DNA of 64,000 bases, taken from contig NC_064753.1 in the NCBI RefSeq assembly GCF_011397635.1, forward strand, positions 42,404,322-42,468,321, in the 5' to 3' direction. Shown here piece by piece: positions 4,980 to 59,158 of this stretch. The position numbers and the translations under genes are program-made. This stretch comes from Epinephelus fuscoguttatus (taxonomy: Eukaryota; Chordata; Actinopteri; Perciformes; Serranidae). The first letter of the stretch is position 1. The number at the start of each line of letters is the position of its first letter. Under the pieces are notes generated by a model. The model saw only the letters and a program-made list of their open reading frames with translations, was not told the DNA's origin and did no database searches.

Positions 4980-5188
4980 GGAAAACGAGGCGTGCCACCC
5001 GGTGGCCGCTGCGCGCTTCCGCGTCACTTCCTTGTTCTTCAGTGGAAGGCGAAAACTTTTCACGGGTCCGAGACGTCCGGGGTAGCCACTTTGTTTTCGG
5101 TGAAGCCAGCGTTAAATGTTGTAACCAAACATCTAATTCCTCCTTCATTGCTCCGAGCTCGCTCCGAGCCGACACAGAGTTAGAAGTT
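4980..5188 (+). promoter_or_regulatory. baxb: Probable promoter/5'UTR of bax-like copy 1
   Basis: Sequence here is richer in G+C and CpG than its surroundings, with no TATA box near the ATG. The stretch from about 5025 up to the ATG is recognisably related to 29385-29537 in front of copy 2 (shared CAGTGGAAGG-like, AACCAAA-ATCTA and GAAGTTATGGCTGACAGCCG blocks). So the promoter-proximal region was duplicated with the gene. The exact transcription start cannot be read. Confidence 0.5.
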
Positions 5189-8100
5189 ATGGCTGACAGC
5201 CGAGAAGAAGAGGACCGAGAAGGACACCAGGAGCCTCAGGGCGCCGTGGGTGGGGAAGGTATGTGAAGCCATGTCAGGTGTAACAGACCAGCTGAAGCGA
5301 CCATTTTTTCACTAAAACCGAACTTTGTTGGATTTCCTCTGAACGTTAGTGTCTAATTTAACTTCCTGGTGACGTCATGTTATCTTATCAAGGACGGAGA
5401 GACGTTTGTGTCGAAGTTTGCTTCCTCTCGTCACCCTCACTTTCACCCCTGGCCCAAACCTCACCCTAACGTCAATCAGGTATCTGTGCCACAGCTACCC
5501 AAAACCTAACCACCGTGCATACAGAAGGAAACCGCAGTATCTGAGGAGGAACAGGGCTGTATCTGAGGTGTATTTGAACCTTGAGCTAGCGTCAGCTGTG
5601 TTGTGTAAGACTACCTGACATTTATCACGTTACCTGGTGAGAGAGACAGCTTTACTGCAGTTCCTGTGGTTACCCCCACCCCCAAAATGGAGATCAAACA
5701 CTGAACAATATGACTGTGGTTCTTTTGATGTGTATCTTATGACATAGCAGTCAGGGGTGTAAGTAAGTAAGTATAACCAGTGCAGGCAGTAAGGTTGCAC
5801 TGGGGCCCCGGGGGAGGTGCAGTAGTTGTAGCCGGGGTGTAAATCACCAGTTACATCACAATACAATATTATATTGACTCTTTGGACAACGATATGATAT
5901 TTGCTGATATTACAAAGTCTGCCATGATATGATTTGATGCGATTAAGGGGCCTGCGATCGATATGAGACAATACCATCTGACCATTTAACACAGCCTGTC
6001 ACAGACGAAGCCGCCATCTGTTTATTTTTTGTAGTGATGGCGAGATGAAGCTTCTTGAAGCCTTTCAGCCGAATGGTTCACAAAAAGGTTCATTTCTCAA
6101 GGCTTCATGTGCACACAAACCCCCCTGCTGATCAAAGACTGTTGGTGTGTCTCAAATCACATACCTCCGTTAGTATACTTCCATGTAGTATACTATGTGC
6201 ACTATGTATTCATTGGCGTAGGTTGTACGCAGATTTCAACAGGGTAGTGTTGTCTCAAACCAAACACTGCCGTTGTGCACTCACCGGAAATGACGACCGC
6301 AAATTAGCTAGTTAGCAAACTAGCATTAACGTTATCGTTCGCGGTACCAAATCATTACAGACTGCTAAATGAACCTAATAAACATACTGCTGGCTTATAC
6401 CCGACAACAGTATAGTGGTGCTTAGTACAAAAAACACATGTATTTGTACAATGAAGCGGGGTTCACGGTCGCACAGTCCTATTTGCAGTTTGAAAAGTGG
6501 TCCCTCCCCTTTCGCTACGTAGCCAAGATGGCGACCATTGAGTGCGAGAAGTGTCCATAGTTCCACACTCAACTTCTTGACCATTTTGAGTGCGCCATCT
6601 GGGTACTCACAGTGCGCTGCATTTTTCCATACTTCTCAGTGTGAACGCACTTATGCACTCAAAATATTAAGTGTATGTACAGAAGTATGCGATTCGAGAC
6701 ACAGCATGTGAAACAGCCAGATATATTATAGGTAATTTTATCAATCTGTAACACTCAAGACTAAAAAAAAACTTGTGGGCAACAGCACTCACAAAAGACA
6801 AAAAAAGTTCGGCCTAAGCCTTCTTCAGTGTATCAAACAGAGACAAAGACACTGAAAGCCTGCTATATACACTGGTAAAGTTCTAGCACCAATCACAATG
6901 CAAGGTATAATGAGAGGCAATAGAAACCATCTGTGTTGCAGCTGCAGCCAATGACAGGCTGACACAGAACAATTGTCAAGGCTGTTGCACCTGAGTCAGT
7001 CCATTAATAGAAACATGCAAATACACTGAAAACATAAGAACATACAAGTTATACAGACTCTGACTAGTTGAATGGGAAAAGGGGAGAATTAAAGTGACTG
7101 AAAAAAAGGCTGAAAAAAGCTTTTAAGTCACTGGACATAACTCAACTAGGGACTAAGAGAACCCCAGCTGAATAGTCAGAACCTAACACACACCAGTCTC
7201 AATATTCAAAAATATAAAGTAGGAAAAGTTGAAATGATTACAGGGCTCCACTAATCTATCCATAATATTGAGACACTCAAGACTGTCCTTCAACAGTGCA
7301 GCCATGTGAATGACAAATAAAAGAAATCAGTTCATCTTAATAAATGCATTTCATGTATCCTTCATGTATTCATTCATATAAATGAAATTTCTATTTTTGT
7401 TTAGTGAATTATGGGTCTGTAACATGACAATACAATGGAATCTAATATTACGTGTCAATTTTTTTTATCAATAAATAGTTTTGTCAACTTTTGAATAACT
7501 CATGATAGGGGAACAATTGTTTTCAAACTGTTGCAGTGTTTAAACAAGGTATGGGGCGGTGAATGTGCTCGTGAACATGAAGAAGGCAGTGCATTTGTTT
7601 GTGCAACTTAGGGACTTTATTCCTTTTATTCAGAAACAAAATATATTCAACTGTGCTGGGGTCCAGATGATTCCTCCTTTTAGAAACAATTTCTCCTGCT
7701 TTGGTGAAAACTATAGTATAGTACATTGCATAACAAACATAAAACACATGTCATAATGTTACTGAAAGTGTACTTACCTTATTGGGAGAGGTTAGATCAA
7801 AATGTTCCCACACTTTCTCTTTCTCACATCAAAATAAGCAGCAGTATAACAAAATGCACCTCTGTGTCACACACAAACCAACAAATCGCCAACACTAACC
7901 CACAAAGTGTGAACGGATCCATAGTGGTTTAAATATGTTCATAAATCGCGCCAATACTCGAACCACTTCCTGAACCAGCGAGGCTTCAAACGTCATCAGT
8001 GACACAAGCATTGATACGCGTTCACTAAACACTTCCAGGATTTCCCGACACACGCTTTGAAGCACCAGCATGGTACGACCCATCACTACTTTTTTGCTTT

Positions 8101-13000: not shown

Positions 13001-14375
13001 TAGCCTAAATCAAAAAGAGAAACTTTTGAAAGCAGCTGTTGCAGTTGTGAATTTTCACTCATAATTTGAAAAAAGAGTTGCCAATAAAGGCAACAAAGAC
13101 AGCTTAAATTGTTGAGAGAATGTTTGGCAGACCAGACTCCAAACCTTTTAATAACACGTTACTATTTCCCCAACTATCGGACATTGTTATGTACTTGTAA
13201 TCAAAAGACATGTTTCATTTTGCCATTTTTGGAAAAAGTTGGTAAAGTTGTGGTAAAGAGCATTTAAATCACATGGAAATTGCACTGCCAAATGTTACAT
13301 TAAGTCTGTATTCTTATGGTATTTTAGTTGTAGACATAACTTTCGTTTTATCTGTGTTGAATAATTTTTTTTTTTTAAAATAATTTCAGTGTATAAATGA
13401 TGTACATAGTTTTGTTGATACAGATCTGAAAAAATCATATTCAGCGTCAGTAATTTTAATAGCAAACTGTTTGTAAAATGTTGTTAAATTATAGCCTAAA
13501 CAATATTTTAGCAGACTTATTAAAGTTGTTGCACAAAGTAAAACTTTTGTATACATTTAAACATCAGTTAAATGGTGATTGAAATGATTGCAGGAAATTA
13601 ACCCATCCTCTCATTGTTTCAGATGTTATTGATGATCCCATCCTGGAGCAAGGAGCAGTGGTCCTCAGAGGGTAAGTCTCATCATAATAACTTTATTATA
13701 ATTGTATTACATATAGGCCTATATTTTATCTCCAAGTGCACATCACACACTGAGCGAGCCGCCTGTTAATGACGCTGTGGGCTAATGGGCATGTAGCTAC
13801 TTCCATGTTTCAGATGATACGTCATGTTTGTAGTCGACCAATGAAGATGAGTTTACATATCACCTTGGGTTCGTCCTTCGCCTTCTCAAAATGATCCCAC
13901 ACTTTGGATTTCCTGCCCGACATGTTATTAACTAGCCTGTGGAATAACCGCAGGTACCAGCCCTGGAAATTAGGGGCCATACACATGCTGCGTCTTAAAC
14001 TGCCTAGAAAACGCGAGGTCAGGCTCTGGGTGCTACTCTCGTGGCTCTTTTGTGGCAGCTTTCAAGAGCGCTGCGGCAGGTTGTGTCAGAGGTTGCTAAG
14101 CAACCTTAACAAGCATCCTATAGCCTATTTACCTGAAATCCCTAGTGCAGAGCTGATCTTCTTCCAGGAGCTGTTTATAAGTGTGTAGGCCTGTCGTCTG
14201 GGGGGGCAGATGTAAAGCTCTGGGTAGCCCTGCACTAACATGATCAACTTTTCCGTACTTATCAGACTGAATATTTACAGAAGAAGGGAAAGATATCTGT
14301 TGTCTGTGACTGGTTTGTAACCTGACCTCTCACATGGTCCAGTCATATAGGTTTTGGCTTATTTTGGCAAGGCAC

Positions 14376-14406
<31 letters not shown>

Positions 14407-17400
14407 TTTCCCTGCGACTGAGCGACTAATGAAATCTTATTAACTAATGACCTTTCTGGTCGACTAACATTTGGTTGACTGTTAGGGGACAGCCCTAATT
14501 ATCTATATTGGTAGTAGTAGTATTTAATAATGATAATAAACTTTATTTATACAGCACTTGGGTTGGGTTGGGTCACAGCAAGAGGGTTCCTGGTTTGAAC
14601 CTGGGGTGGGGCGTTTGAACCCTGGGGTCGAGGAGCCACCTCAGTTTCCTCCCACAGTCCAAAGACATGCAGGTTAACTGGTGACTCTAAATTGTCCGTA
14701 GGTGTGAATGTGAGTGTGAATGGTTGTCTGTCTCTATGTGTCAGCCCTGCGGTAGTCTGGCGACCTGTCCAGGGTGTACCCTGCCTCTCACCCAATGTTA
14801 GCTGATAGGCTCCACTCCCGTGAGTGCCTACTTACTGCTTCTACAGGGTTGAAGCACTGGTTGCAGGAATGTTTTGCAACAATTTTCAAGTTTAGGCTGA
14901 TCTGGGTTCAGATAATGTGCTTCTCATGCTGCCAGCCTTCACCCAGATATTGGATGCCCCTCCAGTCTCAGACTTTCACTGTAATCAATAAGTATGCTTG
15001 TGTCTCAAAGGACATGAGACTGAAAGTTTACATTTTTCCAAGTCCTAAATATTAACATGTCCATCTGTACTTCAAAGATTTATTGGTTTCTGTAGTCACT
15101 TCGTTTGTTTACGTTGACTGTAGAGAGACCCCTTACTAAAGTGATTTCCGTGTTAGTGATGGAGGACCAAATCCACAGTCCTCATTCAGAGTTAAAGGCA
15201 TTCTGAAGCGAAAATGAGTCCGTAACAGTTTGAATTACATAAATCAAGTGGGAATCTGTCAAAGTCAGTTTTTTTTTTTTTTTGCTCTGTCCTAGGTATG
15301 TGACTCAACGCATAAACGCAGAGGAGCCTGGTCGACACGTGTCCGCTGAGCATCTGGGAGGAAGGCCAAATGAACAACAGGATCCACAAATCAAAGAAGT
15401 GGTGAAACAGTTAATCAAGATTGCAGATGACATTAACAGGAACGTTGAACTCCAACGGTAAGCTCCGCATCATACAGACACAACTGGTGGACACTTCAAA
15501 AGCTGTTAAATAGTTTTAAACAAGACAAAACATACACACAGAGTCTCAGGGAAACTAAGGGCAATTTAATGTTGTGGAGTGGAGGGGCAAGTTTGCTGGT
15601 GTTAGCTGGGAACATGGCGGAGCTTACCAATGTTAATAACATCTAAAGTGTTAGAAATATAGTTGTTTCAAGGTGCCAATATAGGACCTCTAAATTTAAA
15701 CAGTAAAAATACTGAATTCTGAGTCTTTCAAGATGTCTTTACTTGAAATCTATCAGTCACTGTCAGGATTAATCTCTCGAGTTCAGTTTTTTTGTATGAT
15801 TAAAGTATCTTACTTTGAAAATTGACAGTATTGTTGAAATAGTATGGAACACAACCGGGCCCTAAACAGCTGCACATTAACTGTGATGTTTATCTATGAA
15901 AAGTAATGAATAATGTTTCTATTTCATTGTATTTTGAAATAATGTGCAGAAGGTTCCCAAAGTATGCAGTTCAGCAGTATAATGCTTACTTACTGTGTAC
16001 TTGTACTGCTGCTTCAGAGGAAAACATTTACCTTTTCTTTCACTTTAAGTAAAAATTCAAATGCAGGACTTTTATAGTGTGGTTTTAAATAGTTTTATTG
16101 TATTTCTATAATTGTTATTATCATAGTTTCAGGACAAAACTTTTTGATCACTTCTAACTCTGCCTGATACCAACATTGAGTTAGTGAAATGTGAAAAGTA
16201 AAGCGAGATGCCTGGGGACCCAAAATCACTAAATCCACCACTGGAAAACACTCAAGTCCACTGACCGGCTACCTGTTCAGAAGCACAGGTGAAGTACACT
16301 TAGTGGGGGCATTCATTCTAAATAGGCATATTAGTCACTTGCTTAGACATAACATTCTTCAAATCCCATCTCGAAACCCACCTGTTCAAACCGGCCGATG
16401 ACACCGACTCCCATGTGCGCATGGTGAGAGAGGAGAGGGAGAGACGCTGTGCTGCTGCCAGAGAAGCTGCTGAATGAGTTCCCTCTGAGCGGTAACTCAC
16501 TAAGAGTCTGAGAGGTCCGGGGCTGTTCATAAAACATTCAGGACGCCACAGTTTATTCCACACTACTGAAGCTGCTCCTCTTTTTGGAACCACCAAGGAG
16601 TCCGTAATAATTTCGCTGTTGTTGCCATGGGTAACAGTATGACGTCAATATGTCAATAATTCGAAATATTACGAGTATCATGAGATGAATTTTTCATATC
16701 CTATTAAAAATTATACTGGTATTATTGTGAATGAGATGATACGGCACATCTGTACTGCATGCCCTTGGGTCCCCAACAACAAACCTGCCAAGTGTGAAGT
16801 AGACTGGATGACCGGTTCTCGATATGTGCAAAGGACAGTCCCACCTACCTTTCTTTGTTGCCTTATAGTTAGATGGACGTGGAGATAGGTTATAGGACGC
16901 AATTTATGAGGTTCGGACCTTTGCTAGGAGGGAATTCAAGTAACTGGACCTCTTTGTATTTTAACTGAATACCTATCTGTTGTACAGTGAAACAGCTGTG
17001 CCAGAACACATCTACAATAAACACTACTTGTGATGCAGAACAAATTTCAGAGAAATCTGCCAACAGGTGAAATTGAATGCATTTTTCTATCCAACTCTCT
17101 CCATTTCTTCTTGTCAGACTGATCAACCAGGTTCCGAGCAACTGTGCTCAGGACATCTTCATGAAGGTGGCCAGGAGCATCTTCACTGATGGCATCAATT
17201 GGGGTCGAGTGGTGGCTCTCTTCCATCTGGCCTACAGACTCATACACAAGGTAACACACGGAAACAGATACCTCACAGAGCAGCGCTTAGTAACAGGGCT
17301 GCATTCTAGATTCTAGATTTTTAAAGTAAGGTACCGTTTTTTTATTTAGATGCTATTACCCAGTGGTATGCCGATGGTTACCTATTGGGGTTCAACTGAT

Positions 17401-20400
17401 GATCTTCACTGCATGTTTTCTAGGGATGCACCAAAATGAAAATTTGTGGCCGAAGCCAAAGCCGAATAATATTAAATGCTTGGCCGAATACCGAGTACCG
17501 AATACTGAATATTGTTGTTTAGTTTTTCATTAGTCTTTGCAGATGAACCCCCTCCAGATTAGTGTTGTCACGGTACAAAAATTGGATCCCACTGTACGAT
17601 ACCAATGAAAATATCATGATTCTGAGTAGTATCACGATACCACAGCGAAAATGAGGCAGATGTGCCTTTTGTCATTTATAAAAAGATAAATCACTTTTCT
17701 ATAATACATCAATGATATTTCAATGGAATAAATTACTTATTGACTTATTCATACTTCAAAAACAGCATCAATAAGTGATGAACATAGGGGGGATCAAAAT
17801 AAAATAAATAAATAAAATAAGAATCAACCAGCCACCCTCCTCCCCTGACAAGTCCCTTCATAAGTAACGAACAGTCCCTAAAGTGCGGTGAGGTTTGTGG
17901 GCTGTGAACGGCTCGTTTCTCCTCTGACACGTCACATACCTGTGTTCAGCTGGCTCGGCTGTTCAGGTACTTTTGGGCAGTCCACACGCCAAGAAGAGGA
18001 TATTATTGGAGCCAACTCCTCCATCGCCAGTAAGCCTATGGCCACCGTATTTGACAGGAATACATTACTGTCTGTGTCTGTGACCCCCGTTCAACCCACA
18101 ACCGATGGGATTCACCTTTCGTTTCTGCTGGTTGTTGAAATCGGTAGGCTGCTCGCACAGCGTGCTGAATGATTTAAGCCTATTTTGCTCGCTCAAAACT
18201 ATTTTTAGTCGCAAATGCAAGTGCGGTGATGGACGGATTGCCACACTGCCGACATTTTACTCCACCGGTCACAGCACGCTGTTTGATTGCGTTATCAAAA
18301 TTCTAAACTATTCATTCAAAAACTATTATTCGGCCTTGCTTTAAACTTATTCCACTGAATACCGAATGTGTGGGTTTTTTTTGCAATATTCAGCCGAATA
18401 TATTCGGTTACCGAATATTCGGTGCATCCCTAATGTTTTCATAAGTGGAGCTATGTTTTTTTTAGGTCAGAGTAACTACTTTTGTTGGACGATATAATGT
18501 CCCAGAAATAATTGCAATAAACGATATTGACAGACCATTATGCCTCTGATATCATGGTAATATAATGGCATGACAATGGAAGTGTGTATTATCAAGAGTA
18601 ATGACCTTTTAATTCTTTTGAATATTCAGATATTAAAATTGAAATATGAAAGAACATTTAATACAATTTTAAGAAGTAATTAACCCCTGTCACACACAAG
18701 AAAGTACATATCAAATTATAGTACCTTTATAGGAGTAGCCCTAAATTACTTAGTTTGAGACTTAACATAAAATGTGGCTAACAAAATAAAAACCAAGTGA
18801 TGCCCCTTGGGTCTAATAGACAAGCTTGGCTTCGGCTTCAAGGATGGATGGCCTGGGAGTCAGGTGGTTTTTAATGGATAAACATAATGGAGGATGAAGT
18901 TGTTGGAGGGTAAAACTACAAACACTGACTTTTTGGTATGGTGCTAGGGTTGGTGTGTGTGTACGGACTTAGCAAATGAGCTCATGGCGCTTGCTGCACG
19001 GGCGAAGCCGAATAGCATTCATCTGATTGAAATCGGCAAAGTTTACCTTTGATATTTTTCAAGGTTTAACCAGCACAGCCAGACAGAGCAGCTGTATACT
19101 GTCAGAGCTCGGTGTTTTGAAAGCAGGAAGGACCGATAAATGCATCATGTAAAGTGTCATATCATCTCTGCTTTCTGTAGGATCTGCAAAGATTTTCCCT
19201 AAACTCTTAAACTGTATTATAACTGGACCAAAACATCAACTGTTCCCATGAATCAGGGGGAACGCAGCACTTAATTCAAGGAAATGGGCTTCAAAGGGCT
19301 TGTTACAGAAGATGAGCTGAACAAAGTTGTCATTCACCTGTCCTTCCCTATGCTGTGACAAGAGTGTGTGAATGAAACATTAAGTTGATGTTACTCCTGC
19401 AGCAGCTGGCTAGTTAGCTAGCTCACTAATTCCACCATGATATCGAGCCACACAGGTTACAGAAAATGAGGAATACAGTAAGGGGCTGTACACATGCCAT
19501 GTTTTTTGTGCCCTCAAAAATGGTAAGGGTATTTCTGGTAAGTAAGCTATGATTCAATGCTAGTTATCATTGCTTAGCAAACTCAGACGTAACGTGCCTC
19601 TGCCCTCTTGAAGATTGGCACAAAGTAAGCACAAGAGCAACACCCAGCGCCGGACTTCGCATTTTCCAGGCAGTTCGACACGGCGTGTTTACAGTCCCCA
19701 GCACAGGACTGTCGGCATCCACGACTTTGTCAGCGCCTATTTATTTCAAAAGAGCAATGGCCAATGGGGAAACACCAACTCTCACGTCATCATTCACTCC
19801 AACCAATGGTGTAGCTTCATCACTCACTCACTCACTCACTCACTGGCCTTGCCTCTGCGGTCCAGCCAAAACATACATACCGCCCAAGCCTAGTGCCTAG
19901 AGCCTAGTCAACAAACAGACTGAGGCCTCAGACCAGTGTGCAGTCTGTTCCCTTCAGATACTTTAGATGTACTAAATTCACTGTGAGATAGCCTGAGCAG
20001 CTCGCCACTTGGAGTCACAACAGTCGTAAACTCTGTGAGAGAAAAAATCTGATTAAATGGATTTAGTCCCTGTGCCTCTTTATTTGTCTTCCTCACATTA
20101 TACACAGAAGTCTGGCTTCAGTAGCTATTACCTCCTGAGTTAAAATTACAGGTCGTCTGGTTTTTGTTTTAAAGGCACTGACCACCAACCATCTAGAGAA
20201 CATCAGAACAATTATCAGCTGGGTTCTCCAGTTCATCAGAGAGAACATCTACCCCTGGCTCGTACAGCAGGGAGGCTGGGTAAGTGATGCATTGTCCATA
20301 AAGATCTATCATTCTTCCAAGATGGTATTATGGTCTAATGTAAGGACTTGTCAGTAGGATCCAAAGCCCTTAATCTTGTTTTCTTGATCTTTCCAGGCGG

Positions 20401-20495
20401 GTGTGATCAGTGGTGTTTCTCGGTGGAGGACAGCAGCCTTAGTAGCATCAGTAGCATTGGTAGTAGCTATTGTTTACTACAGAAAGACACGCTGA
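5189..20495 (+). CDS. baxb: BAX-like apoptosis effector, tandem copy 1 (six coding exons)
   Basis: Pro-apoptotic Bcl-2 family protein expected to oligomerise in the mitochondrial outer membrane and release cytochrome c. Coding exons: 5189-5258, 13623-13671, 15296-15457, 17118-17250, 20175-20279, 20397-20495. All have GT/AG borders and phases join to 205 codons plus TGA. Visible regions: helix alpha-1 ([13 protein letters not shown]), BH3 in exon 3 (LIKIADDI), BH1 in exon 4 ([12 protein letters not shown]), BH2 in exon 5 (WLVQQGGW), and a C-terminal hydrophobic tail ending YYRKTR. Length is close to mammalian BAX (192). The BH1 'GINWGRV' spacing resembles BAK, but the overall order and the tail fit the fish BAX-like (baxb) type. 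The start ATG has G at -3 and +4 and matches the start of copy 2. The baxb name is from memory of the family; BAX/BAK-type membership is firm. Confidence 0.9.
6032..8088. mobile_element. hAT-type element nested in intron 1
   Basis: Termini TAGTGATGGCGAG and GTACGACCCATCACTA are inverted. Flanking 8-mers ATTTTTTG (6024-6031) and CTTTTTTG (8089-8096) differ at one base, fitting a hAT 8 bp target duplication. No transposase is readable. Confidence 0.6.
6146..6703. mobile_element. MITE with TGTGTCTCAAATC termini, nested
   Basis: Left end TGTGTCTCAAATCACATAC and right end GTATGCGATTCGAGACACA are imperfect inverted repeats. It lies inside the element at 6032-8088. Related termini (TGTGTCTCAATTC) bound the element at 36643-37713. 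Confidence 0.55.
8718..9340. mobile_element. Fish hAT MITE fragment
   Basis: The right end reads GATTTCAGACACAGCC and, inward, repeated CTATATAGT and GTAGGGA-type motifs characteristic of a common fish MITE. The left border is not clear, so extent is approximate. Confidence 0.4.
9608..10558. mobile_element. hAT MITE nested in the hAT fragment
   Basis: Inverted ends TAGGGGTGAGTTCGTGTACA and TGTACACGGACTCACCCCTA. Flanking 8-mers GTGGGAAT (9600-9607) and GTGGGAGT (10559-10566) differ at one base. Inside are a TAT/ATT microsatellite (about 9998-10039) and an internal palindrome (about 10060-10130 against 10262-10342). Confidence 0.75.
10635..10724 (+). pseudogene. BED zinc-finger segment of a hAT transposase
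   Basis: Reads [30 protein letters not shown]. This carries the W-x-x-F and C-x-x-C elements of a BED finger. Only this part of the transposase remains, and no start or downstream catalytic domain is joined to it. Confidence 0.65.
10725..13622. other. Rest of bax copy 1 intron 1
   Basis: No exon. Contains two copies of a TGTCCATTATTTTTACAGTC MITE end (about 10832 and 11098) and a palindromic element around 11915-12800, with arms at 12146-12203 and 12382-12440 (GCGGAT-TC-TAGTTA, then AACATGATTGAGCTA). The AT-rich remainder shows nothing recognisable. Confidence 0.4.
12146..12440. repeat. Inverted repeat, about 58 bp arms
   Basis: The left arm (CATCCGTGAAGAAAATATTT then TCCAGCGGAT ... GATTGAGCTA) is the imperfect reverse complement of 12382-12440. 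The spacer is about 178 bp. Probably the centre of a fold-back type MITE. Confidence 0.6.
13850..14497 (-). mobile_element. hAT transposon fragment, minus orientation
   Basis: Right terminus (minus-strand start) TAGGGCTGTCCCCTAACAG pairs in family with 9441. The order terminus, leader, BED finger is the same as in the 9441 copy but reversed. It contains an insertion starting GGGGCCATACACATGC at about 13976 and a poly(T) run at 14377-14411. It lies in intron 2 of bax copy 1. Confidence 0.55.
13861..13923 (-). pseudogene. BED zinc-finger segment of a second hAT copy
   Basis: On the minus strand reads [20 protein letters not shown], then V. It is nearly the same as the segment at 10635-10724 and preserves the Met start missing there. 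It belongs to the fragment ending at 14497 (CAGCCCTA). Confidence 0.65.
14560..14840 (+). repeat. Common fish interspersed repeat
   Basis: Contains CCTCCCACAGTCCAAAGACA, GTGACTCTAAATTGTCCGTA and CTGGCGACCTGTCCAGGGTG in order, a very common fish repeat. The 3' part resembles 394-515, and the middle appears inverted at 28672-28810. Confidence 0.65.
17421..18432. mobile_element. hAT MITE in bax copy 1 intron 4, with empty site in copy 2
   Basis: Inverted ends TAGGGATGCACC and GGTGCATCCCTA, rich in CCGAATA motifs. A perfect 8 bp duplication ATGTTTTC is at 17413-17420 and 18433-18440. The same intron position of copy 2 has a single ATGTTTTC at 32715-32722 with matching flanks. An inner GTGTTGTCACGGTAC segment at about 17561 looks like a further nested MITE. 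Confidence 0.9.
18441..20174. other. Rest of bax copy 1 intron 4
   Basis: Holds the second copy of the window-start repeat (about 19075-19215), a GGGGCTGTACACATGCCATG MITE end at about 19485, and an ACTCACTC microsatellite (about 19820-19842). No exon seen. Confidence 0.4.
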
Positions 20496-25545: not shown

Positions 25546-25846
25546 TACAGTTGTGTTCAAAATAATAGCAGTGTGTTTTAAAAAAGTGAGTAAAACCCAA
25601 AGTCCTTACAATAGCTTTTATTTCCATACACGCAAATGCATTGGGAACACCGCACATTCAATCCCAAATTAATATATGAAGAGAAATTTATCAAATTTGT
25701 TGTTACTTCACAGAAAGTGAAGAAAGAAGGAATAATAGGCTGTTCAAAAAATAGCAGTGTCAGCATTTTTCTTTACAAACTCAAACATTTACTATATAAA
25801 CTGAAAAATTCTCTAAGATTTATATTTCCTGTGAATCACTGAGCTA

Positions 25847-26837
25847 ATATTTAGTTGTATGACTGCTGTTTCTGAGAACTGTTTCACATCTGTGTTGCAT
25901 GGAGTTGACCAACTTCTGGCACCTGTGAACAGGTGTTCCAGCCCAGGACGATTGGACTACATTCCACAATTCCTCTGCATTTCTTGGTTTTGCCCCAGAA
26001 ACAGCATTTTTGATGTCACCCCACAAGTTTTCTATAGGATTAAGGTTTGGGGATTGGGCTGGCCACTTCATAAAGTCAATCTTGTTGGCGTGTTTGGGGT
26101 CGTCTTGTTGAAACACCCATTTCAAGGGCATTTCTTCTTCAACAAAAGGCAACTTGACCTCTTCAAGTATTTTGATGTATTAAAACTGATCCATGATCCC
26201 TGGTATGCGATACTGAAAATAGGCCCGACACCACAGTATGAAAAACATCCCCATATCATGATGCTTCCGCCGCCATGCTTCACTGTCTTCACAGTGTACT
26301 GTGGCTTGAATTCAGTGTCACTTTCATCAGTCCACGAAATGTTGTGCCATTTCTCTTTAAGGCCCTGACACACCAAGCCAACGGCAAAAGAACTAGCGGC
26401 GATGAAGCCGACGGTTCCGTCGCCTACGTCTAGGCCAGTCAAAGTGTTCTTTGGCAAATTGTAACCTCTTCATCACGGCGTGTTTGCAACAATGGGACTT
26501 TGCCGGGGCTTCTTGCCAATAGCTTGGCTTCACATAGGCGTCTTCTAATTGTTACAGTATTCACAGGTAACTTTAGACCTTCTTTGATCTCCCTGGAGCT
26601 GATCATTTGTTGAGTCTTTGCCATTTTGGCTATTCTTCAATCCATTCGAATGGTAGTTTTCTGTTTTCTTCCACGTCTTTCTGGTTTTGGTTGCCATTTC
26701 AAAGCGTTTGAGATCATTTTAGCTGAGCAGCCTATCATTTTCATCACTTCTTTATATGTTTTCCCCTCTCCAATCAATTTTGTAATCAAAGTACACTGTT
26801 CTTCTGAACAATGTCTGGAACGACCCATTTTGCTCAA
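25847..26837 (-). pseudogene. Tc1-like transposase, frameshifted and interrupted
   Basis: Minus-strand order: HTH domain from MGRSRHCSEEQ (near 26825), second HTH region ([20 protein letters not shown]), then catalytic part with TDESD, QQDDPKHAN and NPIENLW, the three acidic positions of a DDE transposase. Frame changes near 26630 and 26460, and a roughly 70 bp insertion at 26361-26432 between FDWP and KEKWHN, break it. It ends at the stop near 25844. Not functional as it stands. Confidence 0.85.
26361..26432. mobile_element. Tiny insertion inside the Tc1 transposase
   Basis: GGCCCTGACACACCAAGCCA followed by AAAAGAACTAGCGGCGATGA closely resembles the first 75 bases of the element at 60584-61414. 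It has no matching right end here, so it is a fragment or a minimal MITE. Confidence 0.6.
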
Positions 26838-27596: not shown

Positions 27597-28483
27597 CCCA
27601 TGTGTATGTGTGCGTATGATTCATAGGTACAACTCATTCTAAAACTGGTTCAGTATTGAGGGAGGCGGATGCAGCCGGGAGCTGCGAAATGAGCTAAAAC
27701 GGTAACGGGGGCAAATGCGTCCCGTATAAGTTTGCGCATTAAAAGTGCTTTTTTTCGCCACTGACCGGTTCAGATCGCCAGTGTTATCTCTGTAAATAGC
27801 ATACTAAGCATTTCCCTTACCTCTGGGCTGTGTGATGTCATCTCGCAAGAGCTTTGCTCCACTGTGTCTGTAGCTCTCTCTACTCGTGGGACAGCCGTTT
27901 TCTTGAGGAAGAGGTGTTTCGGGATTGGATGTCTTCTCTTCTTCGGCTGGCAGTAGTCATCTTGGGAGAAGTGAGCACTGCAGACCCGATGGTCTGCAAG
28001 GCGCAGTGTCTGGAGAGGAGTGTTAGCATCCATTTGTAGCACAACTAGCCACAACTTCAGCAACTCACCATCTGACAAAGGCAGCCTATGAAAGCTGTAC
28101 AGGGTGTTGCGCAACATCCTGTTCTTGCAATTCGGATAAGCACAAACACGAACCATTGTTTTCAATCGATGCAGTAAAACTCTCAGCTGTACTCCGGGAC
28201 AACTGGCTCCTCTGTTTTCTTCCGGCAACAAGCAAAGCTCTCGCGAGATGACATCACAGCCCAGAGGTAAGGGAAATGCTTAGTATGCTATCTACAGAGA
28301 TAACACTGGCGATCTGAACCGGTCAGTGGCGAAAAAAAGCACTTTTAATGCGCAAACTTATACGGGACGCATTTGCCCCCGTTACCGTTTTAGCTTCTTT
28401 CGCAGCTGCATCGGCCTCCCTCAATACTGAACCAATTTTAGAACGAGTTGTACCTATGAATCATACGCACACATACACATGGG
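27597..28483. mobile_element. Long-inverted-repeat element carrying a THAP ORF
   Basis: Left arm 27597-27858 and right arm 28231-28483 are near-perfect reverse complements (CCCATGTGTATGTGTGCG at the tips, GAGAGCTTTGCT-type at the inner edge). The spacer is about 370 bp and encodes most of a THAP-domain protein. No transposase. Outside the left tip, TGTGTATGTG is itself mirrored (27579-27594), so the true left border may be complex. Confidence 0.75.
27770..28156 (-). CDS. THAP zinc-finger protein, 128 aa, in the inverted-repeat element
   Basis: THAP domain at residues 1-90: MVRVCAYPNCKN gives the N-terminal C-x4-C, followed by FHRLPLSD, a conserved Trp in LLKLWLVVL, then C-S-A-H (C-x2-H) and HLFLKKTAVP near the AVPTIF position. 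These are the C2CH ligands and core of a DNA-binding THAP finger. The Met at 28156 is chosen because THAP domains start directly at it; an upstream Met at 28231 is in frame but lies in the arm. The C-terminal ~25 residues are encoded inside the left inverted arm. It could be a captured host gene fragment or the DNA-binding part of a transposase. No catalytic domain is present. Confidence 0.6.
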   Translation of the reverse strand: MVRVCAYPNCKNRMLRNTLYSFHRLPLSDGELLKLWLVVLQMDANTPLQTLRLADHRVCSAHFSQDDYCQPKKRRHPIPKHLFLKKTAVPRVERATDTVEQSSCEMTSHSPEVREMLSMLFTEITLAI

Positions 28484-28810: not shown

Positions 28811-29384
28811 GATTTACTGAAATGTTGATTTTCATATATAAAAGTGACCAGGTTGCCAGTGCAGGTGAGAACACACTGCACAGTACAAAATGCAATATGA
28901 AATACACAATCACTACCTTATAAAGTGGCCAGGTTACTGGTGCTGATGCCTTCCAAAGAGGAACAAGGAAGTAACAGAACAAATACAAATCAAAGAGGAA
29001 GCATTTGGATGTGGCTACAACATAATGCAAAGGCAGAAAGAGATCACAGCAGCACTTGTTCAACAGCCACGTTCAGTATCTATGCCAGCTAGACATTCCA
29101 GTATTTGATGGGATTCCTCTTGAATACCGAGCCTTCATTTGAGCATTTGGGCGTGGCAGGGAAGAAGAGGCCTTCAGTAATGCTGATTGCTTGTATGTTT
29201 TGGAGCAGATCACTAGAGCACATTCAGCAATATATACATGTGTAAGTAAAAGCTGTGCTACTGAATAATTCCGAGGTGTGTCCTTGTATTGCTTGGCACC
29301 TTCCCCGCAAAATGTCTGAGCATGTCCTTGTTTTTTATAAACAAGTTTTCTTTCATTCCTGATATGTGTTACTAGTGTCACTTC
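28811..29384. other. Spacer directly upstream of bax-like copy 2
   Basis: No gene. A short pair of related segments, AAGTGACCAGGTTGCCAGTG and AAGTGGCCAGGTTACTGGTG, lies at about 28842 and 28922. Confidence 0.35.
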
Positions 29385-29537
29385 CTGTTTCCACTGTGGA
29401 AGGTAAAAAGTTTCTCACAGAAGAGACACGTTCGGACTGGTGACGTTATTTTCGGCCAAAGTAGCATTATATCTTGGAACCAAATATCTAGCCTAATTTT
29501 TCATTCATCACTCTGAGCTGACAAGAAGCTTGAAGTT
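29385..29537 (+). promoter_or_regulatory. baxb: Probable promoter/5'UTR of bax-like copy 2
   Basis: Diverged counterpart of 5025-5188. Similarity is strongest in the last 30 bases before the ATG and in the ACCAAATATCTA block. It is less CpG-rich than the copy 1 version, which may mean weaker or more restricted expression (inference). Confidence 0.45.
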
Positions 29538-32500
29538 ATGGCTGACAGCCGACAGGGAGTGGACAGAGAAGAAGGAAACCAGCAGCCCCAGGGCACCATG
29601 GGTGGGAAAGGTATGTGAACCCATGTTAGGTGTACAGAGCAGCCTTTTTCAATAACTAACTAAATAACTAAATAACTTTTTAAATATCTAACTAAAAAAT
29701 GTATTTGTCCAACTAAGGGACTGTTCTTCCTTTACCAGAGGAGGGGGTGGAAGCTAAAAATATTTTTTATCATGAGCCTCCCTGAGTGACTGGCAGAAAA
29801 TCTTATAGTTAGTTAGTAAGTTATTCGACTTATAAAACGTACCCTTTTGCATTTGAAAGTTTAAAGTTAAAGATGTAATCCCGGAGTTGAAAAAAGCCTG
29901 ATTTTAGAACAGACATAAAATAAAGTGATGATAGTAAAGTAAAGTTTTGATGAAATATCACAATTTTAAGCTCAGATTGGGTGATGTGTTATTTGAATTC
30001 TTTTTGATGGAAGTGTTCGTCAGCATGATGTGTCCAAGAACCATCTGAAATTTGAAATTCCAAGAGTATTTCTGTTTTTACAGTTTCTCGCTGTGATAAA
30101 TGGTGTACTTTTGTTGCCCTCCAAACCTGCTGTATTTGGAAGACTTGTTTTCTTTAAAAATCAATAAATACAAAATACAACCACTTAAGTTTCTTTGCCC
30201 CTCCCTTACGCCAAAATAAAAATACGCAAGTCCCTCCTCAGTGCTTAAAAAATTATTTGACATGCCTCCCCCTTTTTGCACAACCCTCTCCCCTTCTCAT
30301 AAATAATGAACAGTCCCTGAAGCTACTTAGTAGCTCAAACTAACATTACTTTGTAAAAAAAAATATAATATAAAAAAGTGTCATGCTAGCAAAAATTGTC
30401 ACTCAGTTAAGTTTATTGCAAAAAGTGCCCCCTCAAGGATCAATCATCAGACTTGGCCTCCAAATTCCACAGATCCCAATTCGTTTAAGCATCCATGGGA
30501 CGTGTCGGTACCCTACACAACCCACAGCACTCAAAGGATATGCCACCTTCTGCCATTTTGAGTATGGAAGGAATATAATACATTTTTTCTATGCATTTAA
30601 ACAAACAGTGCAGATGAATGAAATGACTGTGGGTATTTATCAGTCTTCTCATTGTTCCAGATGTCATTGTTGACCGCATCCTGGAGCGAGCAGAAGTTAT
30701 TTTTAGAGGGTAAGTCTCAACAACAACAACAACAACAACAATATGAATAATATTAATAATCTATTATATTTATATATAATATATGTATATATACTTATAT
30801 AATTTATATTTATTTTTAATTTATACAGCACTTTTCAAAACAAAGTAACAAAATGCTTCACATGTTTGACCCAGGGATAACACTGAATTAGAATACAAAT
30901 CTAACTGATATGATATGAGAACATGTAGCACCTTGCACAACGTGATTTTGCCATGTAGGACATGCTCCCAGATCAACTTACCACACCGCATTCCTGGACC
31001 AACATTGCAATCAACCAATCACAGCCCTCTGACATCATCAGTATGCTGCTCCTGTGCTACTTTCAAAATTTCTTTGCGCTTCTTCAGAGCTAAGCTAAGT
31101 TTACCAAATTGAAGCTAATACAACTGAACAAAAATTGTATAGTTTAATGTTACTGAGGATTTTGTTCAGTTGTACTAACTTCAATTTGGAAAACTTAGCT
31201 TAGCTCGACTTTCTGAGGGTCCCCCTGGTGTTTTTGTGCCCTTTTTCAAATTGATGCCGCTCTGGGTGCAGATCATTTATGTCACCTGCCACCAGCCTTC
31301 ACGTAGGTACCTTAAAGAATAGGATACTTTAGGCTCCCATTTTCCAAGTCCAGCAACACTAACATGTCTTTATGTACATCAGAAAAGTCGTAGTTAGTAA
31401 TTTCATATTAAATTCCTGCTCAAATATGTGGTGTTTCCTTAGTGAAGCAGTTTTCTCTGTCCTAGGTATGTGATTGAATGTTGTAAAGCGGAGGAGCCTG
31501 GTCGACACATTTCCTCTGAGCTTCTGGGAGGAAAGCCAAATGAACAACAGGATCCACAAATCAAAGAAGTGGTGCAACAGTTGATCAAGATGACAAATGA
31601 CATGGACAAGAACATTGAGCTCCGACGGTAAGCTGTGCATCATACAAACACAAAGACCCCATCGGTCAACAGATCCGTTGTTTATTGATAAGTCACAGTA
31701 CCTGACAGTACTGTCAGTCAACAGAAGCTCTTTCATAGTTTTTACGCAGCAGCCGTAGGCAGATTGCAGACTGAAAATCCTCAGTCTCTGGTTTGGTCAC
31801 AGTTTTGACTGCATATTATGTAAAGCAGATGTTTAAATAATACACAAGCCTTGTTTGCTTGACTGAGGAGGAATGACCTTTGTTCACACCAACACTCAAA
31901 TGCAGATCTATCTGTAAATGTGTTTTCATCCGCCAGTTTTCCTCCTTTATTAATCAGACCCGCCCCGGTCTCTGAACAGAAATATGGGCATTGAGACATT
32001 CTTCATGACGACCGACCACATCCATTTCAAAGTCATCTGAGAACTAGGGATGTGCCAATATCAGAATTTCTGAAGTGTAACAATTTCAATGAAACGTAAA
32101 ATGAAAAGTAAAATGTTCCATGTTTACACTGGATTTTATAGCAACTTTGTTGGACTCTCTGAAATAACCAAAATTAAAAATACTTTAAAAAAAAATCAAA
32201 ATCAAAATGCTATAAAGGAAGGAGTGCTGTGCTTTGTTCACATTGCCATCTAAAACAATGACAGCTATGGTAATAATGGAAATGATTGGTGTTTTGGCAA
32301 GTTTTACCTTCAATTAATTGACTACCCTATAATATATCGTAAAACTGCTGTACCAGAACTTATCTACTGTGAACACTACTCATGATGCAAGTGAAATCCA
32401 ATCCAAACATCAGCACATTTGATTCTGTCCATTTCTTCTTGTCAGACTGATCAACCAGGTTCCAAGCAACTGTGCTCAGGACATCTTCATAAAGGTGGCC

Positions 32501-34593
32501 AGGAGCATCTTTACTGATGGCATCAACTGGGGTCGAGTGGCGGCTCTCTTCCATCTGGCCTACAGACTCATTCACAAGGTAACACACAGAAACAGATACT
32601 TCACAGAGCAGCGCTTATTAACAGGGCTGCATTCTAGATTCTAGATTTTTAAAGTCAGGTACCATTTTTTAAGATGTTGATACCCCTTTGGGTTCAACTG
32701 ATGATCTTAACATCATGTTTTCATAAGCAGAGCTGTTTTCCACGGTGTGACATGCAACATGCAGTGCTCCTCCACCTCACATGAGCACTTTGAGTCAAAC
32801 AGTGCAGTTCAGAAGTGAAAAGAACTTTTTTGTTTTTCATAGAAAAATATCTTACTCCACTGTCACTTAGCGCTGGACTTAATGGCCTGAATATAGTTTT
32901 GATTTTTTTCAGGGTTGGGTGCTGCGGAGCTCCCAAAAGATCACGTGGGATTTTTATGCCTCTGGGCCAGCGACAGCAGTGGCAGAGGCATAAAAATCCC
33001 GCCATTTGGCACAAGCGTCCACTGATTCAAATATGTTGAACTGATTCGAATTTTGTGGTCAAAGGTCAAGGTCACTGTGACCTTACGTCAATCTCAATCT
33101 CATGAACACAATATCTCAAGTACACCTTGAATTCATTTCTTAAAATTTGGCACAAATGTCCATTTGGACCCAACCATGAACTGATTAGATTTTGGTAGTC
33201 AAAGGTCAGGGTCACTGTGACCTTATGTCCATGTCATTCTCGTGAATATGACATCTCAAGAAGGCCTCTGGGGAATTCCCTCAAATGTGGCAGAAACGTC
33301 CACTTGGACTCAAGAATGAACTGATTAGAATTTGGTGGTTAAAGGTCAAGGTCATTGTGACCTCACAAAAAATGTTTTTGGCCATAACCTAAGTATGATG
33401 AAATACAAATATGTATCTTCTTTGCAACAACATCCATATTTGAAGCATTGTTAACTGTCCTTGCCACATATGAGTCTGGACAGACATGGATGTAAACTTT
33501 AACTGATAGCTTACCACGAGGCAGTAATTCTAATTTTAGTCTGTCCCCGTCAGATGCTTTAGATGTGTTGCCCAGCCCCACTGCCACTTTAAAGTCTCTT
33601 CCCTACTGGACAAATATATAAATAAAAAAACAACACTAACACCAACTACCATCTGGCTTTTGTCTTTAGTGGTAAAGGTTACAGTCAGCATTCAGTTCCA
33701 GGAGAATTGACTCTGCTGTAGTCACGAGTATTTATTAGATCCAGCTTCAATTGACAGTGATGGAAACATGACTCCTGGGTGGACACATCAATGTTCATTC
33801 CTTTTCCGGCGCATTTCAATGACAAGCCGCCACAAATTCCATCAGTTTCTGTCCAACTAGCACTCCAACATTGTGCCAAATTAGTCGGTACCAACTTTGA
33901 AAGAGATCAGTAACAGATATAAAAAATATAAAACACAAGTAACTACCGTAACATTTTCACTGGCCTCCATGCTCTTTTATATGGTTTACTTACCCTGTTT
34001 ACTGGCATGTCATGATATCAAATGTGACACACAAAAAAACAGAAATGTATACTCGTCTTCCAGCAGTAAGAAAGGTCTATTGCCTATTTTTAGCAAGTTT
34101 TCCTGTGTTTAAAAAACTCAAAAACATATAGATTACATGTTAATTTTGGTGGAAGACGGGTGTAAGATTTAATTCTTACATTGGGTACGCACAGAAATCT
34201 GTCGCTAGTAGCCCAGAGTTTCAGGATATTCTTAAGGTCTTAGGGCTTTTGTTTTAAAGGAACTGATCACCAACCATCCAGAGAACATCAGGCCAATTAT
34301 AAGGTGGTTTCGCCAGTTCATCAGAGAGCATCTCTACTCTTGGCTCGTACAGCAGGGAGGCTGGGTGAGTGATGCATTTTCCACAAGGATCTGCCAGTTG
34401 TGTGCTCTATTCGTCTACAATTAAATTATGGTCTAATGTAACGACTTGTCAGTAGGATCCAAAGCTCCTAATCTTGCTGTCTTGATCTTTTCAGGTTGGT
34501 GTGATCATTCGTGTTCCTTGGTGGAGGACAGCAGCCTTAGTAGCATCATTAGCAATGGTAGTAGCTATTGTTTACTACAGAGGGACGCGCTGA
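29538..34593 (+). CDS. baxb: BAX-like apoptosis effector, tandem copy 2 with altered BH3 core
   Basis: Paralogue of the copy at 5189-20495, same strand. Coding exons: 29538-29610, 30661-30709, 31466-31627, 32446-32578, 34260-34364, 34495-34593. Five of six exons have the same length as in copy 1 (exon 1 is 73 versus 70 nt), all GT/AG, open to TGA, 206 codons. BH1 ([12 protein letters not shown]), BH2 (WLVQQGGW) and a C-terminal anchor ending YYRGTR are kept. The BH3 core reads LIKMTNDM, so the small residue and the near-invariant Asp of L-x-x-x-G/A-D are replaced by Thr-Asn. The tail has lost one Lys (RKTR to RGTR). The intact frame and conserved splice sites argue for a functional gene rather than a pseudogene. 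It may be a BH3-crippled effector, a regulator, or a tissue-restricted form; that part is inference. The symbol is shared because the two copies cannot be told apart by name here. Confidence 0.88.
30410..30550 (+). repeat. Fragment of fish repeat also at 50511-51030
   Basis: GACTTGGCCTCCAAATTCCA, CCATGGGACGTGTCGGTACC and CAAAGGATATGCCACC match the middle of the repeat at 50511-51030. It lies in intron 1 of bax copy 2. Confidence 0.5.
33040..33385. repeat. About 140 bp tandem repeat, 2.5 units, with TCAAGGTCA motifs
   Basis: The block TTTTGTGGTCAAAGGTCAAG then GTCACTGTGACCTT recurs at about 33050, 33187 and 33328, with ACATCTCAAG-type and GTCCATTTGGAC-type blocks between. It sits in intron 4 of bax copy 2. 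Related sequence is a common fish repeat. Confidence 0.7.
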
Positions 34594-53000: not shown

Positions 53001-56000
53001 GGAACAGTGAAAAGATGAATCAAGACAGTTTTTCTGAGTTTTATTTTTTTCTGTCGACTCTGAATGATGTGTGTTACGGTGCTAAAATAACGGTTTATTC
53101 TAATGGAGTGTGGTGGGTTTGGTGATTTCAGGGCTGTTTCTGGTTAAAATGTAACTTACACTTTAAAAAAAAAAGTTCTGTCTCTGTAGGGATCCTTTCC
53201 ATAATGTTGTCAGACACTTACAAAAACAATCTGAACTTGTCAGTGGCAAAAACAAGCACTTCTAGTGGACGTCCATTGAGGGTGTATATTGCCCCAAGTG
53301 GTTTCATTGCAGTGTGTCAGCACTGAAGGCAGAGCCCTGTTCATCCTATAAATGTTGCTCAATGGCACATGAAGCCAAAAAAGTTCAACTTCCCGGGTAT
53401 AAAACTGAGCAAGCACACTAGAGACTTCCTCCAGTATGCCCTTGCTAATTTGAATGGGGATAAAATGATTAAATCTTGCGCCTCATCTGTCACTGTTTCC
53501 CACAGAATTAGAATTTATGTGTGGCGTTCGCTGACACGTTTTTGTTTTGTGTGTCTTTGAACACAGAGAAGGCGGAACTCCTTGTGGGTTTTGAGTTGCG
53601 AGGTGGATAATTAATCGATCAATCAGAGCTGATCAGATCAGATTGATGGATGAGAGGAGCAGCTGCTCCAGAGGCATGAACACTTAAGGGAAATTTCGGT
53701 TTATTTCAACCTGTCTCCTATCGTCCTAAATTTGTTTCAAGTGACTAGTGACATAAAAATAATAGTTAGCATGTTAGCCGTTAGCCTAGATACAGCCGGG
53801 GCGCATAGTAGCGTCTGACCTGTTAAAACGTAAGTGAATGGGCAACCTTCAAGTGCCAAGTTAGTCCACTAAACAAGCTTTTTTCCCACAAAGACCGCCT
53901 CATATCGTTAGGATAAATGTCAGAGAACATATAGGAAACGACATGTAAACGTGTTGTCTTACCTTACCGGTGTGCTGCCATGTTTGTTTACCATTTAGCT
54001 CTGCTTTCCAAAGTGTGGCCGAAATATCGCGAGAACAAGCAGCAACAGCTGGAAGGCAGGACCGGACAGTAGCCTGAAAAGTTCATTCATTTATTTTATG
54101 AAAGATTTATAGAATAATGGCTAACTTTTTGCCAGACTTCGACTTTGTGGAGGAGGAATTTGATTTTGCAGAGTTTGATGGCCGCCCTTATTTATTTGAG
54201 CCAGAATACACTGACGAAGAGCTTCGTGAAATTGAAGAACGGAGGAGGAGAGAGGCACAACAGGTAGAGGACGAGAGGGGAGGAATGGCTGCTGCAAGGC
54301 TGCGTAGCTCTGGAGATTGGTGGTGTACCTGTGAATGCTGTACCCCAGTGCCCACAGAAGAGGAATACCTCTGTTGCAAGGAATGGGACCGGTTGCAGCC
54401 TTATTTTCAAGGTCTGGATGTGACCGAGGACAAGACACCTCCACCTGGAGTAGTATCCAGCTGGGCTTTATCTAGAGCTCACGAGATACATTTCAGCCGC
54501 ACTTGGGAAAGCAGAGCTAAATGGTAAACAAACATGGCAGCACACCGGTAAGGTAAGACAACACGTTTACATGTCGTTTTCTATATGTTCTCTGACATTT
54601 ATCCTAACGATATGAGGCGGTCTTTGTGGAAAAAAAGCTTGTTTAGTGGACTTTGCACTTGAAGTATGCCCGTTCACTTACGTTTTAACAGGTGTGATGC
54701 TACTACGCGCGCTGGCTGTATCTAGGCTAACGGCTAACATGCTAACTATTATTTTTATGTCACTAGTCACTTGAAACAAATTTAGGACGACAGGAGACAG
54801 GTTGAAATAAACCGAAATTTCCCTTTAAGATTCACTTTCACTGCAGGAGCAATGAATAATTGAGTGGTACATATATTCCAACAGCGCTTCTTATGACCTG
54901 TTCAGCTTCAAAAATAGAAAATCAAAAGGCAGCAGCTGATGAATCATGGCCGGCTGACACATAAATGAATGTGTGGGAAACCCTGGTTCTAGACTTAATC
55001 CACTGATTTACAGATGTCTCTTTCACAATGATATCTATGTGAAAAAATCTTTTCAGGAGAAAGAAGAGATAAGCATGCAGTATTAAAATGTTTACACTCT
55101 CAAATACTAGAAAACAGACTGATCCCCTGGGACAGGGTGTGAGCCACAGACCCCTGCTGTAACACTACTATGTGCTTCAATTTACAACATGCTGCATATT
55201 AATAGCAACTGATGTGACAAAACAGTCTTGATAAAATGTTTTCCCATACTGTCCAGCCCAGCAGAAGGGCACCGTGTCACGGACCAGAGAGTAAACAGGA
55301 GTAAACAGGACTAACTGGGGGCGTATTGGCTGAAGTAAATGTCCTGAGTCTTACAACGCTGAGGATCAACTATTTTAATGAAGACTTTTGTGATCTAGTT
55401 TCTGAGCCTCTTGAGTTTACCCAGAACCACTCAGAGGGGAGGCTGTCAGCTCACAGGTCAGAAACAGTCCTGTAGAGATCACTGACAATGATCTCTACAG
55501 TTAGTGATGTCCTGGTTTCCTCCAACACTCAGGACCGAAGCCAAAGGCCTTTGATTTACTGTAATCCCTCTTTCTTATGATGGATGTGCTTAAAAATGTG
55601 GTCCTTCTCTCAAAACATTGTAAAAGAGAAGACCACGGTCAAATCACTGGTGCGAGGATCCAGAAGCACTGAGAGGAATAACACCCCCCCGCTGCTGCCG
55701 CCCAACAGAAACTCTTCAGCTGTTGCAGTTTAAACAAACTGGAGCATTTGAGCTCTTCCAAGCAAACTCTGCTATGCTTCATTCCTGTGGCTTCTCCTCT
55801 GTCAGCAAGAGATAAAACACTTAGTTCCAGTGCACAAAAATCTACGGCATTGTGACGTCCCGTGGACCTGCAGGTGCTCTGTGGCACGGAGCCTTATCTC
55901 CAGATACCAGCTGACATCTCAGTTTGTATTGTCAAGTTAAAGCTTGTCAGCCCTCTGCTTACAGCCTTTAATGCTGTTGGTAATAAGGAGCTGTGATTTC

Positions 56001-59000: not shown

Positions 59001-59115
59001 AAGTCACCAAGGAATCTATGGAGTGCTTGTAGGACTAAGCAACGTCAGCCTCCTAACTGATAAACTGCCTCTGTAGCTGCTGGAACTTAAGTGTAATTAT
59101 GAGCTATTGTTAGTG

Positions 59116-59158
<43 letters not shown>

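Follow-up and report, generated by a model that had tools for sequence, protein, structure and literature searches.

A tandem BAX-type paralogue with an altered BH3 core in the grouper Epinephelus fuscoguttatus

Gene pair and neighbouring elements

The window, i.e., the whole 64-kb stretch of Epinephelus fuscoguttatus DNA analysed here, harbours two BAX-type genes arranged in tandem on the + strand (copies 1 and 2), with the following features:

5189..5258, + strand: copy 1 exon 1
13623..13671, + strand: copy 1 exon 2
15296..15457, + strand: copy 1 exon 3 (BH3 core LIKIADDI at 15411-15434)
17118..17250, + strand: copy 1 exon 4
20175..20279, + strand: copy 1 exon 5
20397..20495, + strand: copy 1 exon 6
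29348..29537, + strand: sequence upstream of copy 2, alignable to 4999-5188 upstream of copy 1 (121/179 aligned bases identical)
29538..29610, + strand: copy 2 exon 1, start codon at 29538 (GT donor, open frame; 81% identity with copy 1 exon 1)
30661..30709, + strand: copy 2 exon 2 (AG/GT borders, frame kept)
31466..31627, + strand: copy 2 exon 3 with BH3, 162 bases (AG/GT borders; 85% identity with copy 1 exon 3)
31581..31604, + strand: copy 2 BH3 core LIKMTNDM (in-frame reading; M-T-N also in E. lanceolatus)
32446..32578, + strand: copy 2 exon 4 with BH1 (NWGR at 32525-32536; 95.5% identity with copy 1 exon 4)
34260..34364, + strand: copy 2 exon 5, helix 6 region and start of BH2 (AG/GT borders)
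34495..34593, + strand: copy 2 exon 6, end of BH2, tail and stop (AG border, stop TGA)

Copy 1 encodes 205 residues in six exons with an open frame and GT-AG borders throughout; copy 2, likewise of six exons, yields 206 residues after splicing, has no internal stop and shows GT-AG at 5/5 introns. Exon lengths are equal between the copies except for exon 1 (70 bases in copy 1 vs 73 in copy 2). The interval 31466-31627, singled out in the preliminary description, is exactly exon 3 of copy 2 (AG before, GT after).

Both products contain the Bcl-2 domain (Pfam PF00452; 92.4 bits for copy 1 and 82.1 bits for copy 2, cut-off 31.4), and phmmer matches to BAX structures together with its place in the tree assign copy 2 to the BAX branch of the Bcl-2 family by descent. 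Copy 2 retains the NWGR motif of BH1, including the Arg partner of the BH3 Asp, and its C-terminus comprises a 16-residue hydrophobic stretch followed by RGTR, a putative membrane anchor. Its protein matches the public E. fuscoguttatus record 'apoptosis regulator BAX-like' (P0001) at 100% identity, while copy 1 corresponds to the 'apoptosis regulator BAX' record of this species (P0003), an ordinary member of its gene group; a record of E. lanceolatus shares 92% identity with copy 2. Several fish orthologues carry the UniRef name zgc:153993 and, going by these record names, the two copies look like members of this teleost BAX-type group.

Relatives were taken as the best 120 of 206 matches in a first search and the best 120 of 305 in a second. 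The 117 other proteins of the first search are cluster representatives, and the counts below include the isoforms P0078 (by name) and P0118 (by sequence) as well as P0080, which is labelled Lampetra planeri and looks teleost; the 90% clusters cover further members (five in P0003, two in P0002), among which other groupers are not visible. AlphaFold2, run for each copy on alignments of 70 of the 120 first-search proteins, predicted similar folds of nearly equal confidence (mean pLDDT 76.7 for copy 2 and 77.1 for copy 1), which are uninformative on the BH3 change. The predicted model of copy 2 matches BAX, BOK and BAK structures and thus appears to adopt the Bcl-2 helical fold.

Several other elements are present in the window. 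Between the two copies lie a transposase remnant (25844-26179, - strand; DDE-superfamily fragment, PF13358, 36.5 bits) and a transposon-like element (27597-28483) with a THAP frame (27770-28279, - strand, 52.8 bits) enclosed by inverted repeats (153 and 84 bases; 98% and 94% complementarity). A similar transposon-like arrangement is found at 53811-54700, with inverted repeats of 163 and 51 bases and an open frame (54102-54527, + strand) whose match to the P2X7 C-terminal domain stays below the cut-off (21.0 vs 23.5 bits). An armadillo-type exon resembling catenin delta-1 (59097-59411, - strand; whole-sequence E 5e-5, no single stretch significant) forms part of a neighbouring gene.

Origin of copy 2 and its altered BH3 core

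In a tree built from 32 of the 120 listed proteins, copies 1 and 2 group together (support 98/83), joined next by P0004 from a short contig, with Centropristis outside; judged from these protein sequences, this topology puts the duplication within the grouper lineage. A second tree (22 proteins) likewise groups the two copies, at lower support (90/87), and rejection of the alternative grouping of P0004 with copy 1 was sought and not obtained (p-AU 0.136). Branch lengths in the 32-protein tree are highly unequal, 0.36 changes per site for the copy 2 stem vs 0.055 for the copy 1 tip. Since parts of the introns and ~190 upstream bases can be aligned between the copies (upstream alignment score 42, whereas 200 base shuffles reached -6 at most), the duplication occurred at the DNA level, and an origin of copy 2 as a retrocopy is ruled out.

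The BH3 core reads LIKMTNDM in copy 2 vs LIKIADDI in copy 1, in agreement with the preliminary description, the two codons at issue differing by one base each (copy 1/copy 2: GCA/ACA and GAT/AAT). Thus, copy 2 departs from the canonical motif (L-x-x-x-G/A-D) in that the Leu is kept, with Thr and Asn at the other two sites. A sequencing error at these codons is unlikely, since E. lanceolatus shares M-T-N; the identical record P0001 may derive from the same assembly and is not an independent check in this respect. Present in two species and not frameshifted, copy 2 is a true tandem BAX paralogue with an altered BH3 core. As to whether T-N is fixed in relatives, the combination is common to both grouper records, which at 92% identity is a weak sign of selection keeping it.

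The Asp is termed absolutely conserved in the BH3-only motif in a review (PMC7022251), and had been regarded as near-invariant in the present family too. This overstates the case, the site being occupied by D in 98, E in 15, N in three and a gap in one of the 117 other listed relatives (D 114, E 17, N 3, gap 1 over 135 listed proteins, i.e., the 117, copy 1 and 17 from the second search). The preceding small site holds A in 109, S in six and T in two of the 117, and the combination of T plus N is restricted to the two grouper copies 2 among 137 listed proteins. Position 83, directly before the small site, is Ile in 117/117 listed relatives and Met in copy 2 of both groupers. Asn at the Asp site was found among the listed proteins in Merluccius polli, M. 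merluccius and Lepidogalaxias, all reading IANEL. In contrast to these hake and Lepidogalaxias records (P0099, P0110, P0111), the seven other listed gadiform records keep Asp.

Protein-wide change and constraint

The two products differ by 53 residues in the pairwise and 55 in the multiple alignment, a few of the latter lying in the gapped N-terminus, where the alignment is unsure. When seven close relatives are used for polarisation, the copy 2 branch receives 41 replacements and the copy 1 branch five, with nine undecided (binomial P for 41 vs 5, 4e-8). Among the 90 positions with 95% or higher conservation in the 117 listed relatives, 15 are changed in copy 2 and one in copy 1. The replacements in copy 2 comprise P30R, Q34R, G35A and A36E in the first helix, I83M, A84T, D85N and N88D in BH3, A140E, T142I, T151P, S154R and L157R near helices 5 and 6, and R183W ahead of the tail, conserved residues being lost from helix 1, BH3, helix 6 and the tail. 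Hence, the earlier view of an otherwise intact gene holds for the frame, the splice sites, NWGR and the hydrophobic tail, but not for the residues. Likewise, BH3 does not stand out from an intact background: although 8/12 residues are changed in the stretch 83-94 around it, a permutation scan for a mutational hotspot was not significant (P 0.19), replacements are protein-wide and Asn recurs in three other fishes. The scan was significant only for a run of 40 little-changed residues starting at residue 95 (P 0.009), most of it in exon 4.

Exon 4 contains two nonsynonymous differences in ~103 sites vs 54 in ~368 elsewhere (P 1e-4), and within this exon nonsynonymous differs from synonymous change at P 0.03. 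Synonymous change in exon 4 alone is not lower than elsewhere (4/32 vs 19/112, P 0.78). However, divergence is markedly lower at exon 4 synonymous sites plus the initial 92 bases of intron 4 (9/124) than at seven other intron ends (127/466, P 5e-7), also when intron 5 is added to the latter (9/124 vs 146/605, P 7e-6). Measured against this local neutral rate, the shortage of nonsynonymous change in this exon is not significant (P 0.12), and exon 4 was therefore rejected as proof of purifying selection on copy 2. A gene-conversion tract extending over exon 4 and early intron 4 (17118-17342 in copy 1, 32446-32670 in copy 2) is likely, albeit not proven, from this divergence pattern. A 3' stretch composed of the end of intron 5, exon 6 synonymous sites and 71 bases past the stop is also little diverged (15/158).

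Over the entire coding sequence, dS between the copies is 0.179 and dN 0.129 (exon 3: dS 0.157, dN 0.177; exon 4: dS 0.138, dN 0.020). The nonsynonymous/synonymous ratio is estimated at ~1.3 for the copy 2 branch and ~0.16 for copy 1, on the assumption, made without outgroup DNA, that synonymous change is split evenly between the copies. Copy 2 proteins of the two groupers differ by 17 residues, 8/17 at family-conserved sites (80 sites in the test), as compared to 41/497 differences in 29 non-overlapping orthologue pairs (Fisher 5e-5); 0/296 orthologue pairs with 10-26 differences reach such a share. The conserved-site reference for these comparisons excluded both grouper copies 2 and both rows of each pair, while other close kin of the pair stayed in. 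The severity of replacements is no different from that of random mutation, neither on the copy 2 branch (P 0.28) nor between the groupers (P 0.61). Taken together, the conserved-site share and the random-like severity indicate that family constraint is not visible in copy 2.

Possible roles of copy 2 and comparison with known effectors

Gene structure, presence in two species, rate asymmetry and loss of family constraint are established for copy 2. With less certainty, and tentatively preferred here, copy 2 may be a grouper-lineage duplicate under strongly relaxed constraint, with an open frame and a putatively hypomorphic effector as product. Accordingly worded as a sequence of events, a teleost BAX-type gene would have undergone tandem DNA-level duplication in the grouper lineage, and copy 2 would then have drifted under strongly relaxed residue constraint while retaining frame, splice sites, NWGR and hydrophobic tail, the four BH3 changes being part of the protein-wide drift. 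Its product would keep the BAX fold and miss the pair formed by BH3 Asp and BH1 Arg; it would be poor at auto-activation, yet able to enter oligomers seeded by copy 1 or BH3-only proteins.

The reasons for expecting a hypomorph rather than a null come from BAK, where the BH3 Asp D83 forms a conserved salt bridge with R127, and D83A impairs auto-activation, is rescued only partly by direct activation and still induces apoptosis at ~10-fold higher expression (PMC8752837). As loss of this Asp weakens but does not abolish killing by BAK, the earlier suggestion that copy 2 may be unable to oligomerise goes too far. At the small site, BAX G67R impairs apoptotic activity (PMC10725471). Transferred by analogy to copy 2, these observations would predict weak auto-activation and little ability to donate a BH3, with a groove side (NWGR) that might still take one up; the replacements in copy 2, Asp to Asn and Ala to Thr, are perhaps milder than the laboratory change D83A in BAK and the tumour change G67R in BAX. 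A survey of the open-licence literature (titles and abstract openings) revealed no study of this grouper gene pair among the papers listed, which in two cases were the best 20 of 53 and of 696, and nothing on D68/R109 or D68R was found in the open-licence literature. Several points weigh against a hypomorphic product: A36E, T151P and L157R might abolish folding or membrane insertion and thereby create a null, an effect to which AlphaFold2 is insensitive; the missing constraint since the two groupers split fits decay equally well; and the raised ratio together with the open frame would also fit adaptive change.

It is possible, though rather doubtful, that copy 2 is a dying duplicate, unexpressed or non-functional, which has not yet acquired a stop or frameshift. 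The differences between the groupers, indifferent to conserved sites and as radical as random mutation, would suit such a gene, as would the loss of conserved residues from helix 1, BH3, helix 6 and the tail. In exon 4, which together with the initial 92 bases of intron 4 looks gene-converted, the low nonsynonymous change need not reflect selection on copy 2. The frame, however, is difficult to reconcile with neutral decay since birth. If 41-58 missense changes are assumed, neutral evolution should have brought 2.4-3.9 stops and 1.8-2.8 splice hits, and the joint chance of neither occurring in copy 2 is 0.001-0.015; in neutral simulations with three branch lengths, the frame alone remains open in 3-16% of runs. 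Full-length protein records in two species also argue against decay. The open frame as such fits relaxed constraint on a useful protein, a recent loss of function or partly adaptive change.

Selection of copy 2 as a modulator, i.e., a BH3-altered partner which joins or blocks copy 1 oligomers, appears unlikely, and the effector plus decoy pair considered in the preliminary description is thus a possible but not a favoured arrangement. An open frame on a copy 2 branch whose missense rate is estimated to equal or exceed the synonymous one would be compatible with such a role, as would retention of NWGR while the BH3 donor side changed. Opposed to it are the non-significant BH3 cluster, the spread of changes over the whole protein, including helices 1 and 6, and the drift of copy 2 residues between the two species regardless of conservation.

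A parallel to the grouper pair is provided by Labrus bergylta, which has two BAX-like proteins (P0073, P0103) on contigs of equal listed size. The two are sisters (93/89), 94% alike and separate from the grouper duplication. The ordinary copy reads IADEL at BH3, the second (P0103) IT-ELN with the Asp deleted, and HWGR replaces NWGR at its BH1. Among the matches listed, as judged by eye from their names, two distinct genes, as opposed to what look like isoforms or strains, occur only in E. fuscoguttatus and L. bergylta, and in both species one copy is without the BH3 Asp. Thus, grouper copy 2 and the second Labrus copy are both lineage-specific duplicates with T at the small site and without the BH3 Asp; the latter differs in its independent duplication, in the Asp being deleted rather than replaced, and in the N-to-H change in NWGR. 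Such an independent loss would be in line with an evolved modulator; on the other hand, P0103 is a single record, perhaps of a gene in decay or the result of faulty annotation, and Tautogolabrus also has T at the small site but keeps Asp, so that of these two BH3 features the loss of Asp alone is specific to the Labrus copy. The grouper and Labrus cases came to light post hoc, and their parallel is no more than suggestive. One may speculate, as a long shot, that extra fish BAX copies are repeatedly disarmed at BH3 with the remainder kept and expressed, then acting as a dominant partner or dosage brake.

That copy 2 is an ordinary second BAX, a normal effector tolerating Asn at the BH3 Asp site, seems least probable: the IANEL of both hakes and Lepidogalaxias as well as N88D, which places an acidic residue three positions further along, as in human BAX, speak for it, but 15/90 conserved sites are changed and family constraint is undetectable in recent change.

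A fast-drifting duplicate, with which the present evidence agrees, is an ordinary outcome of gene duplication. Located next to an intact twin, and with the BH1 Arg kept but the customary BH3 Asp gone, copy 2 would, if expressed, constitute a natural test of the dependence of a BAX-type effector on this Asp. If disarming were recurrent, it would reveal how additional killer genes are tolerated in genomes.

With the teleost BAX-type group (zgc:153993), copy 2 shares the PF00452 domain, NWGR, the GGW of BH2 and the hydrophobic tail, and it differs from this group at 15 of the 90 conserved positions, with T-N for A-D in BH3. Compared to vertebrate BAX (channel catfish 5w63, human 1f16), it is devoid of the canonical pair of small residue and Asp in BH3. 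Like BAK D83A (PMC8752837), copy 2 lacks the Asp through which BH3 pairs with the BH1 Arg; unlike this engineered single mutant, it carries Asn at this site and some 40 further replacements.
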